64,000 bases of DNA. It comes from Rugamonas violacea (GTDB taxonomy: Bacteria; Pseudomonadota; Gammaproteobacteria; Burkholderiales; Burkholderiaceae_D). The notes below the pieces were generated by a model. That model did no database searches and was not told the DNA's origin. It worked only from the letters and a program-made list of their open reading frames with translations. The DNA is taken from contig NZ_JAEMNU010000051.1 in the NCBI RefSeq assembly GCF_016461825.1, positions 25,640 to 89,639 of the forward strand, given 5' to 3'. A program made the position numbers and the translations under genes. Shown one piece after another: positions 8,561-62,478 of this stretch. Each line of letters begins with the position of its first letter. Positions within the stretch are counted from its first letter, which is position 1.

Positions 8561-9682
8561 TCAAAACAAATCCAGTTGTCCGGCCGAGCCCTCCTTTGCC
8601 TTTGAGCCCAGCGGCGGGATCACCAGCGGGCGCCGGAACAGCGAGGTGTCGAGCCCCTTGAAGCGGTCGCCGCGCCCCGTCAAGCCGAGCCTGGCGACGG
8701 CGATCTGGAAACGCTGGCGTATCAACTCCGCCCACACGCCCTCGCCTTTCATGCGACTGGCAAAATCGCTGTCGTAGTCCTTGCCGCCGCGCATTTCGCG
8801 GACGCGGTTCATGACCCGTTGCGCCCGGTCGGGAAAATGCGCCTGCAACCATTGCTGGAACAGGGGGTTGACCTCCCACGGCAAGCGCAGCACCACGTAA
8901 TGGGCGTGGACGGCGCCGGCGTCGCGCGCCGCCTCCAGCAGGTGTTCGATTTCCGGCTCGGTGACGAAGGGAATGATGGGCGAAATGCTGACGCTGACCG
9001 GAATGCCGGCGTCCGTCAGCGTGCGGATGGCGCGCAGGCGCCGCGCAGGCGCCGCCGCGCGCGGCTCCAGCGTGCGCGCGATGGTCGGATCGAGCGTGGT
9101 CAAGGTGATGGCGGCGGTGGCCAGGCGCTTGGCGGCCATCGGCGCGAGGATGTCGATGTCGCGCTCGATCAGCGCCGACTTGGTGATCAGGCCGACCGGA
9201 TGCTCGCATTCTTGCAGCACCTCAAGGATGCGGCGGGTCAGCCGCAGTTCGCGCTCGCAGGGTTGGTAGGCGTCCGTGATGACGCCCAGCGCGATCGACT
9301 CCGGCACATACGCGGCCTTGCCCAGCTCGCGGCGCAGCAATTCCGGCGCGTTGACCTTGGCGAAAATCTTGCTCTCGAAATCCAAACCCGGCGACAGTCC
9401 CAGATAGCTGTGGGTCGGCCGCGCGTAGCAGTAAATGCATCCGTGCTCGCAACCGCGATAGGGGTTGAGCGACACGCCGAACGGCAGATCCGGCGAGCTA
9501 TTGCGGCTGAGGATGGTCTTGGCCTGCTCCTCGGTGACCTGGGTCTTCCAGCCGCGCGGCTCCTCCTCCTCGCGCGGCCAGCCGTCGTCGTATTCCTCGC
9601 GGGCCTGCTTGTCGAAGCGGCCCTGCAGATTGGACACGGCGCCGCGCCCCTTGCTCGCCTTGAGCGGCCGTGGCGGCAACAT
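8561..9682 (-). CDS. PA0069-family radical SAM protein (spore photoproduct lyase-like)
   Basis: A 373-aa radical SAM enzyme. The [4Fe-4S]/SAM motif is GCEHGCIYCYARPTH (CxxxCxxC), followed by the GLDFESKIFAK segment typical of the PA0069/Rv2578c branch of SplB-like proteins. I place the start at 9682 because GGAAGGG lies 6 bases upstream and the product begins MLPPRPLKASKGRG like family members. An ATG at 9715 would add 11 residues with a poor ribosome site. A LexA-type box sits just upstream, implying DNA-damage control. The substrate of this family is not known to me; a DNA or nucleic-acid lesion is suggested only by SplB similarity and the box. Confidence 0.85.
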   Translation of the reverse strand: MLPPRPLKASKGRGAVSNLQGRFDKQAREEYDDGWPREEEEPRGWKTQVTEEQAKTILSRNSSPDLPFGVSLNPYRGCEHGCIYCYARPTHSYLGLSPGLDFESKIFAKVNAPELLRRELGKAAYVPESIALGVITDAYQPCERELRLTRRILEVLQECEHPVGLITKSALIERDIDILAPMAAKRLATAAITLTTLDPTIARTLEPRAAAPARRLRAIRTLTDAGIPVSVSISPIIPFVTEPEIEHLLEAARDAGAVHAHYVVLRLPWEVNPLFQQWLQAHFPDRAQRVMNRVREMRGGKDYDSDFASRMKGEGVWAELIRQRFQIAVARLGLTGRGDRFKGLDTSLFRRPLVIPPLGSKAKEGSAGQLDLF

Positions 9683-9731
9683 CGCCTGCCCTTCCAGTTG
9701 TTCATCATCCGGCATAGCTCACTCACCAATA

Positions 9732-9747
9732 CTGTATATATGAACAG
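9732..9747 (-). promoter_or_regulatory. LexA (SOS) box upstream of the radical SAM gene
   Basis: CTGTATATATGAACAG fits the CTGT-N8-ACAG consensus with an AT-rich centre, and the flanking bases TA on each side extend the palindrome. It ends 16 bp before the ATG at 9715 and 49 bp before the preferred start at 9682, a position suited to repression. It is the only such box I noticed near a gene start in this window. Confidence 0.8.
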
Positions 9748-10022
9748 TATTCTATGCCGCGCAAATCAGCTTATCAAGCTCAACCATGAAAAAATATCAT
9801 CGCCCCGGCGCACATGCGGCCCCGCGCCTTGCGCCTAGACCCTGTGGCGGCCGCCCGCTTGCTGGTATCATGCCAACAAATCCGGGGATCGACGATCCCC
9901 GCGCCTCGCCCAGTGCATTTCTGCGGCATGGCGGGCCCAACGCCCCTGACCCACCCACACATTTTCAGGATGCCGCCCAAGAGCGTGGCGGCGCCCCGAT
10001 ATTGACTATTCGCGAGCACATT
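9748..10022. other. Intergenic stretch without a gene
   Basis: The gap between the radical SAM gene's control region and the DUF2760 gene. Open frames cross it but show no family resemblance and have atypical composition. It should carry the promoter of the DUF2760-Hsp70 operon; I see no clear -35/-10 pair. Confidence 0.4.
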
Positions 10023-10637
10023 ATGAACAATTCGAGCACACCGGCTCTGCCCTCGTTCTGGCGCAGAATCCCCCTGGCCTTCGGCGCCTTCTTCAGCACC
10101 CTGTCCGACGCCGAATACGCCGCGCGCATCGTGCGCCTGGCCGACGCGCCGCTGACGCCCACGCCGGCCGCCGCGCCGGTCGCCGCAGCAACGGCGCCAA
10201 CGCCCGCACCGGCGCCGGCGCCGGCCCCGGCTCCTGCGCCGGCGCCTCTGCGCGACACCGCGCCCGACGCCGCCCTGCAGTTGCTGACCCTGTTCCAGCG
10301 CGAAGCGCGCCTGATCGACTTCACCCAGGAGAACCTGAGCGCCTACTCGGACGCCGACATCGGCGCCGCCGCGCGCGTGGTCCACGAGGGCTGCGGCAAG
10401 GTGCTGCGCGAGCACTTCACCATCGAGGCGGTGCGCAGCGAGGCCGAAGGCAGCCGCATCGTGCTGGAAGAAGGCTTCGACGCCAGCGCCGTGCGCCTGA
10501 CCGGCAACGTGGTCGGCAAGGCGCCGTTCCGTGGCGCCTTGAGCCATCGCGGCTGGCGCGCCTCCAGCGTGCGCCTGCCCAAGCTGGCCGACGCGCACGA
10601 CGCCTCCGTGCTGGCCCCGGCGGAGGTGGAATTATGA
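10023..10637 (+). CDS. DUF2760 protein, first gene of an Hsp70-like operon
   Basis: A 204-aa protein with a hydrophobic-aromatic N-terminus (FWRRIPLAFGAFFSTLSD), a Pro/Ala linker made of about eight Ala-Pro repeats (about residues 55-80), and a conserved C-terminal domain of about 120 residues (LLTLFQREARLIDF... through GALSHRGWRASSVRLP). This domain matches DUF2760 as I recall it. The stop overlaps the ATG of the first Hsp70-like gene as ATGA, implying coupled translation and a shared function. No enzyme motif is visible. A partner or substrate adaptor of the downstream ATPases is an inference from context. Confidence 0.75.
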   Translation: MNNSSTPALPSFWRRIPLAFGAFFSTLSDAEYAARIVRLADAPLTPTPAAAPVAAATAPTPAPAPAPAPAPAPAPLRDTAPDAALQLLTLFQREARLIDFTQENLSAYSDADIGAAARVVHEGCGKVLREHFTIEAVRSEAEGSRIVLEEGFDASAVRLTGNVVGKAPFRGALSHRGWRASSVRLPKLADAHDASVLAPAEVEL

Positions 10638-60268: not shown

Positions 60269-60378
60269 GATAAGATTCGATTCGATTGGAGGCGGTTCGC
60301 GGCGGGTTGTGCGCAGTAGCCCTGAGTTACCGCGCCAGGGCCGTTGGCAGGCCAATATTTTAACAAAGGTCTGAGGAT

Positions 60379-62478
<2,100 letters not shown>

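Follow-up and report, generated by a model that had tools for sequence, protein, structure and literature searches.

A LexA-boxed radical SAM gene of the PA0069 family with a candidate clamp-binding tail

What might a radical SAM enzyme from a family that carries no functional label be doing behind a LexA box? The question is raised by a 64,000-nucleotide stretch of the Rugamonas violacea genome (the window, in what follows), in which a gene of the PA0069 family (NF033668; in NCBIfam a hypothetical equivalog, with no function given) begins next to a palindromic SOS box. PA0069 itself is said to be listed in the P. aeruginosa LexA regulon of Cirz et al. 2006. SOS regulation of splB has already been published, so damage control of such a gene is not a new claim. 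LexA control of splB was predicted in 2012 by comparative genomics in alpha- and betaproteobacteria, in a study which, in its accessible part, carried out gel shifts on Vibrio promoters, did not see the SOS-splB trait in gammaproteobacteria, and read it as SOS-regulated photoreactivation (PMC3323433). The accessible text of a 2021 paper places SplB/COG1533 in the SOS networks of Bacteroidetes and calls its SOS regulation established in several species (PMC8565304), and in the excerpted text of another, SplB-like radical SAM genes are tied to SOS by neighbourhood (PMC3765255). Expression data, again from partial texts, put PA0069 in one differential group with PA0669 and PA0670, the direction not being given (PMC6546240), and a P. 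fluorescens gene known as SplB by annotation at +6.58 after EGCG, in a table of DNA-repair genes (PMC5435343).

Family, cluster and fold of the protein

The predicted product matches NF033668 over its whole length with 489.6 bits (cut-off 360) and is a full member of the PA0069 family, as the preliminary description had it; the gene start, ATG at 9715, is likewise confirmed. With 61.5 bits against PF04055 (cut-off 29.5), a CxxxCxxC motif and a barrel, it belongs to the radical SAM superfamily. The second-best family, NF038135 (the Rv2578c family), scores 218.8 bits, below its cut-off of 430, and TIGR04470, the radical SAM mobile pair protein B, scores 91 bits against a cut-off of 410; the protein is a member of neither.

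Conservation was assessed in two sets of orthologues. One holds 170 loci (L016-L185), hand-picked as a spread from those genomes that pass the cut-off (66 of 150, 171 of 398 and 29 of 60), and was reduced to 167 by removing a partial sequence (L105) and two with inteins (L136, L137); the other consists of the best 80 of 596 candidates, less one in which no frame was found (L208), leaving 79. Two proteins, with the same upstream sequence, are common to both sets, and one further identical pair lies within the hand-picked set. The three cluster cysteines (C89, C93, C96) and Y95 are each present in 246 of 246 orthologues, and the residue that follows, position 97, is Phe in 144 and Tyr in 102. 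The two excluded loci with inteins, from the Burkholderiales genomes G048 and G140, have an in-frame insertion directly before the third cluster Cys, which by eye is intein-like in beginning with Cys and ending in HN; since NCBIfam has intein-bearing Rv2578c proteins (NF038136), the active-site codon appears to be targeted in two clades.

The predicted structure (mean pLDDT 82.1, pTM 0.81) has the fold of spore photoproduct lyase (SPL). SPL structures (PDB 4fhc and relatives) occupy Foldseek ranks 1-6 at a query TM of 0.47-0.53, and reach VIA Z scores of 20.0-20.4 over 264-268 residues, the next family being NifB at 15.9; the best of these matches covers residues 34-349 with Z 20.4, an rmsd of 3.1 and 266 aligned positions at 12% identity. 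The CxxxCxYC motif is likewise common to both proteins. Kinship to SPL rests on the fold because the link in sequence is hardly visible: no SPL chain was found at E <= 1 by phmmer with one sequence or by profile search, and hhalign against one SPL sequence gave a probability of 12%. Against the SPL profile TIGR03886 the protein reaches 11.7 bits, far below the cut-off of 437.55, and TIGR04070 was not listed for it at E <= 10, with one orthologue scoring 17.3 bits against a cut-off of 400.

A further difference concerns the hydrogen donor of SPL, Cys140 in the Geobacillus enzyme, which we mapped by eye from the TSD/ITD register to position 145. There the seven commonest residues, T, V, A, S, I, G and M, none of them Cys, cover 245 of the 246 orthologues, and no column besides 89, 93 and 96 has Cys in even half of them; partial Cys columns occur in the 167-row alignment at positions 138 (59 sequences), 170 (54) and 340 (62). 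Quenching in SPL is thiyl-based. Given that the family has no column for the H-donor Cys, thiyl quenching of the SPL type cannot be a family trait, and the reaction, or the way in which its radical is quenched, must differ from that of SPL.

The LexA box at the locus, in the genome and before orthologues

A CTGT-N8-ACAG box directly upstream of the radical SAM gene had been the starting observation of the preliminary description, and it is borne out in an extended form (Table 1). The core CTGTATATATGAACAG lies inside TACTGTATATATGAACAGTA, which is a near-perfect palindrome, and the 20-bp palindromic consensus, allowing up to three mismatches, has this single match in the 64-kb window (two mismatches) and none in 100 shuffles. 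The bare pattern CTGT-N8-ACAG also occurs once, at this same site; with 0.46 occurrences expected per 64-kb window, and one or more found in 38 of 100 shuffles, we rejected the core by itself as unremarkable in 64 kb, and significance attaches to the extended palindrome alone.

The box abuts a promoter-like sequence, TTGATA-N17-TAGAAT, in which a promoter scan matched 10 of 12 sigma-70 consensus letters, a consensus match being no evidence of function. As the box begins at the final base of the -10 hexamer, a LexA dimer bound there would cover the transcription start, which, judged from the position of the -10 hexamer, should lie under the box. The observation that uvrB has no such box also holds, the best match between 60001 and 60480 reaching 6 of the 10 letters, but uvrB is too distant to be the neighbour it had been taken for.

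Table 1. Features of the window, and genes beside exact LexA-type sites in the draft genome (positions are those of the window unless a locus is named)
Feature	Position	Strand	Remark
PA0069-family radical SAM protein, 384 aa	8561..9715	-	ATG at 9715
C-terminal pentapeptide QLDLF, residues 380-384	8564..8578	-	candidate beta-sliding-clamp-binding motif
Radical SAM cluster motif CEHGCIYC (C89, C93, C96; Y95)	9428..9451	-	
LexA (SOS) box TACTGTATATATGAACAGTA, palindromic	9730..9749	-	15 bp upstream of radical SAM ATG
Core of the box, CTGTATATATGAACAG	9732-9747		inside full box
-10 hexamer TAGAAT	9749..9754	-	last base is first base of box
-35 hexamer TTGATA	9772..9777	-	17-bp spacer to -10
DUF2760 gene, divergent	9786-10637	+	38 bp from box
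Two adjacent Hsp70-like frames, 617 and 965 aa	10634-15387	+	past DUF2760 gene; likeness by eye
uvrB frame	60364-62475		about 50 kb from radical SAM gene
RecA	beside exact site L003		Pfam
LexA	beside exact site L007		Pfam; second box adjoins
Y-family polymerase (dinB)	beside exact site L006		Pfam
FAN1 HTH and SAP domain gene	L002:1501-3016		beside exact site L002; Pfam
SocA/Panacea antitoxin-like gene	L008:920-1518		exact box 75 bp before
C5-cytosine DNA methylase	L012:37-1518		exact box 64 bp before
Gyrase-B-type (parE-like) gene	near exact site L005		174 bp from site
imuA-like gene	at exact site L010		by eye; Pfam assigned no family

A genome-wide scan, one of the checks named at the outset, found 12 exact ACTGT-N8-ACAGT sites in the 6.93-Mb draft genome, including the radical SAM box and others before lexA, recA and dinB; with up to one mismatch there are 53 sites, compared with 25 for the reversed pattern. 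At least five of the 12 exact sites, the radical SAM box among them, belong to genes of the DNA-damage type, and for three (L001, L004, L011) we found no convincing target gene. An exact box also stands just before the FAN1-type gene, suggesting SOS control of this nuclease here.

Conservation of the box before orthologues, another of those checks, was counted in the stretch from 150 to 500 nt ahead of the cluster motif. Dropping four more loci with less than 300 nt upstream left 165 and 77 loci from the two sets, 242 in all (171 beta/gamma, a figure that takes in one from Myxococcales and a few bins of uncertain class, and 71 alpha); L097, whose box falls outside the counted stretch, was scored as lacking it. 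At least 9 of the 10 box letters are present in 97 of the 171 beta/gamma loci, compared with a shuffle mean of 0.45 and with 0 of 114 downstream stretches, and the box is exact in 70 of the 171; by set, the beta/gamma figures are 53/115 for the hand-picked spread and 44/56 for the loci from the best 80 of 596. None of the 71 alpha loci showed the beta/gamma box; 65 of them have instead the direct repeat GTTC-N7-GTTC (shuffles 0.65; downstream 1/51), the alphaproteobacterial LexA motif. Removing identical proteins leaves the picture as it was (96/169 and 64/70), although the loci are mutually related and the counts are therefore not independent trials. In 82 of 98 cases the box lies 0-29 nt before the first in-frame ATG or GTG. 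All ten loci of family f55, which belongs to a non-Burkholderiales order of the same GTDB class, have the box, as does an Aeromonas caviae locus, in contrast to the absence from gammaproteobacteria reported in the accessible part of PMC3323433. A motif specific to the clade is thus found upstream of orthologues without being universal: a box with 9 or more letters was not found in 74 of the 171 beta/gamma loci. Taking the box, the promoter match and this conservation together, LexA/SOS regulation of the radical SAM gene is predicted with near certainty.

Some of the box-less beta/gamma loci have 8 of the 10 letters or other palindromes, and many have nothing recognisable. CTGG-N8-CCAG palindromes stand at the expected place of the LexA box upstream of L026, L034, L039, L253 and L257. 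We considered ACTGG-N8-CCAGT, suggested by several box-less beta loci, as a variant LexA motif and rejected it: exact sites number 4, 10, 2 and 3 in four genomes, where the reversed control yields 11, 13, 11 and 13, and as the pattern is not enriched no variant motif is claimed. One further box-less locus, L157, carries AATTAGTAATAATACTAATT, which we take to resemble the Xanthomonas LexA motif.

Neighbour clustering in the set of the best 80 of 596 candidate loci found no conserved repair-operon partner, and PADLOC gave no match that would indicate a role in defence. In 11 alphaproteobacterial loci the next gene downstream, in the same orientation, encodes RNase HII (for example L261:5158-5961, the locus on which Pfam was checked); the two may work together in connection with the removal of ribonucleotides, or may be no more than syntenic. 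Phage records yielded two partial matches to the protein, and four IMG/VR contigs (L266-L269) encode PA0069-type proteins near contig ends, which may just as well reflect contained host DNA as genuine viral genes.

A conserved C-terminal tail

The protein terminates in ...AGQLDLF. The beta-clamp-binding consensus is QL[SD]LF. Among the orthologues, Q-x-x-[LM]-[FL] falls within the last 12 residues in 233 of 246, exactly at the terminus in 203, and occurs outside the tail twice in 67,461 residues. Q380 is kept in 245 of 246 and L383 in 242, and Phe occupies position 384 in 199 sequences, Leu in 38; positions 2, 3 and 5 of the pentapeptide vary, and the strict form QL[DSN]LF is present in 84 of 246. 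The tail segment is modelled with a pLDDT of about 51, as expected for a flexible tethering peptide. A QLxLF-type peptide, conserved in a terminus that is probably flexible, is what a clamp-binding protein would be expected to have, and the DinB-type polymerase of the same genome ends in QGELFP, a QGELF form that occurs in the PA0069 family as well. Short as the motif is, we consider it probable, from its match and its conservation, that this candidate tail tethers the protein to the sliding clamp. Of 79 box-less loci, 74 retain the tail, so that tail and box are separate lines of evidence.

The same kind of ending extends to relatives outside the family. Four Rv2578c-type actinobacterial loci, plasmid-borne or on large replicons, share a Q-x-x-L-[LF] end (QLTLL, QLRLL, QEPLF, QESLF), and differ from the window protein in phylum, in SOS motif and in belonging to a family for which the latter scores below the cut-off. 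Upstream of two of the four is GAAC-N4-GTTC, a count made without a chance control, and one of the four has TCGAACATACATTCGA upstream; the Tsukamurella locus has GAAC-N5-GTTC, which has the wrong spacing and was not counted. A Gemmatimonadota relative ends in QLSLGI and two clostridial relatives in QQSLFD and EQLSFF, and the one mobile pair protein B that was read (L277) is without a clamp-type tail. In SPL, whose solved chain ends in YVQYFT, such a tail is missing; the SOS box, too, sets the window gene apart from SPL.

Among the open-licence papers searched, a part of the literature, we found no report joining radical SAM, splB or SPL to the clamp. The papers on LexA-regulated splB share with this work the regulatory idea and the COG1533-type gene; in the parts accessible they equate splB with SPL photoproduct repair, and the clamp motif and the missing Cys go unmentioned there (PMC3323433; PMC8565304).

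A proposed role at replication forks

Considering box, tail, fold and missing Cys together, we propose, with a probability of about 0.7, that the protein is an SOS-induced, clamp-recruited enzyme of the SPL fold that processes DNA lesions at replication forks by a chemistry unlike that of SPL. DNA is probably its substrate, and the rounded joint figure can stand so high because clamp tethering and a DNA substrate support each other. In undamaged cells LexA, bound to the box where this covers the start of transcription, would block the TTGATA/TAGAAT promoter; RecA filaments formed on damaged DNA would lead to LexA cleavage, and the gene would come on with recA, lexA and dinB. The product would combine an SPL-like barrel, holding a [4Fe-4S] cluster and SAM, with a flexible tail ending in QLDLF. 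The sliding clamp would then pass this enzyme on to primer-template junctions at forks that are stalled or gapped, and there a 5'-deoxyadenosyl radical may act on a damaged or misincorporated nucleotide. Pol IV/DinB, Pol V and ImuB are clamp-recruited SOS enzymes. They combine LexA control with a QxxLF-type C-terminal peptide, the combination predicted for the window protein, which differs from them in being a radical SAM catalyst and no polymerase, and in that its clamp binding is a prediction.

The part of this proposal most open to another reading is the tail. A LexA-controlled enzyme might reach DNA unaided, its QxxLF end serving in folding, in dimerisation or in contacts with some other partner; SPL does act without such a tail, and the variation at tail positions 2, 3 and 5 would suit this. 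The letters that are kept, Q1, L/M4 and F/L5, at or near the C-terminus, are however those of the clamp peptide, the low confidence of the modelled tail fits a tether, and the ending of the organism's own DinB-type polymerase recurs within the family, so that we regard an enzyme with no link to the clamp as unlikely. Alternatively, the box could be incidental or could serve the DUF2760 gene, as it lies between two divergent genes, close to the DUF2760 frame, and is missing from many beta/gamma loci; the radical SAM gene would then not be damage-induced. Against this, the box tracks the radical SAM gene across families whose neighbours differ, in alphaproteobacterial loci the LexA motif of that class occupies the corresponding position, and in the window it is the radical SAM promoter that abuts the box, all of which makes this explanation very improbable.

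There remains the enzyme's chemistry. SPL is not a light-driven photolyase, which counts against any reading in terms of photoreactivation. If the protein were a true SPL-like photoproduct repair enzyme for non-sporulating bacteria, in line with the reading in the accessible part of PMC3323433, one would expect the fold of SPL, which is indeed the nearest solved one, and the CxxxCxYC motif, whose Tyr is invariant here and whose next residue is Tyr or, in the majority, Phe; partial Cys columns would even allow a lineage-specific donor. The want of a conserved H-donor Cys and scores far below both SPL profile cut-offs weigh more heavily, and we hold photoproduct repair of the SPL type to be improbable, rather more so than an enzyme unconnected with the clamp. 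The suggestion from which we started, a damage-induced DNA or nucleotide repair enzyme, therefore survives in its LexA control, for which motif context, promoter overlap and orthologue conservation speak, and in a DNA-directed role, to which the SPL-like fold and the conserved clamp-motif tail point; a kinship to SPL in chemistry finds no support.

SOS control had been predicted before; the clamp-type tail and the missing Cys give a concrete hypothesis for a family that has had no assigned function. If the tail works as it does in other proteins it places the enzyme at primer-template junctions, and the missing Cys argues against the photoproduct-lyase reaction that has been assumed. More tentatively, at somewhat less than even odds, the PA0069- and Rv2578c-type proteins may form a previously unrecognised class of SOS-induced, clamp-recruited radical SAM enzymes for fork-coupled radical repair, widespread in Proteobacteria and Actinobacteria, built on the SPL fold without the Cys chemistry of SPL, and directly reversing or remodelling a lesion that arises from blocked or error-prone synthesis. 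Were this true, direct radical chemistry would join the SOS activities delivered by the sliding clamp.
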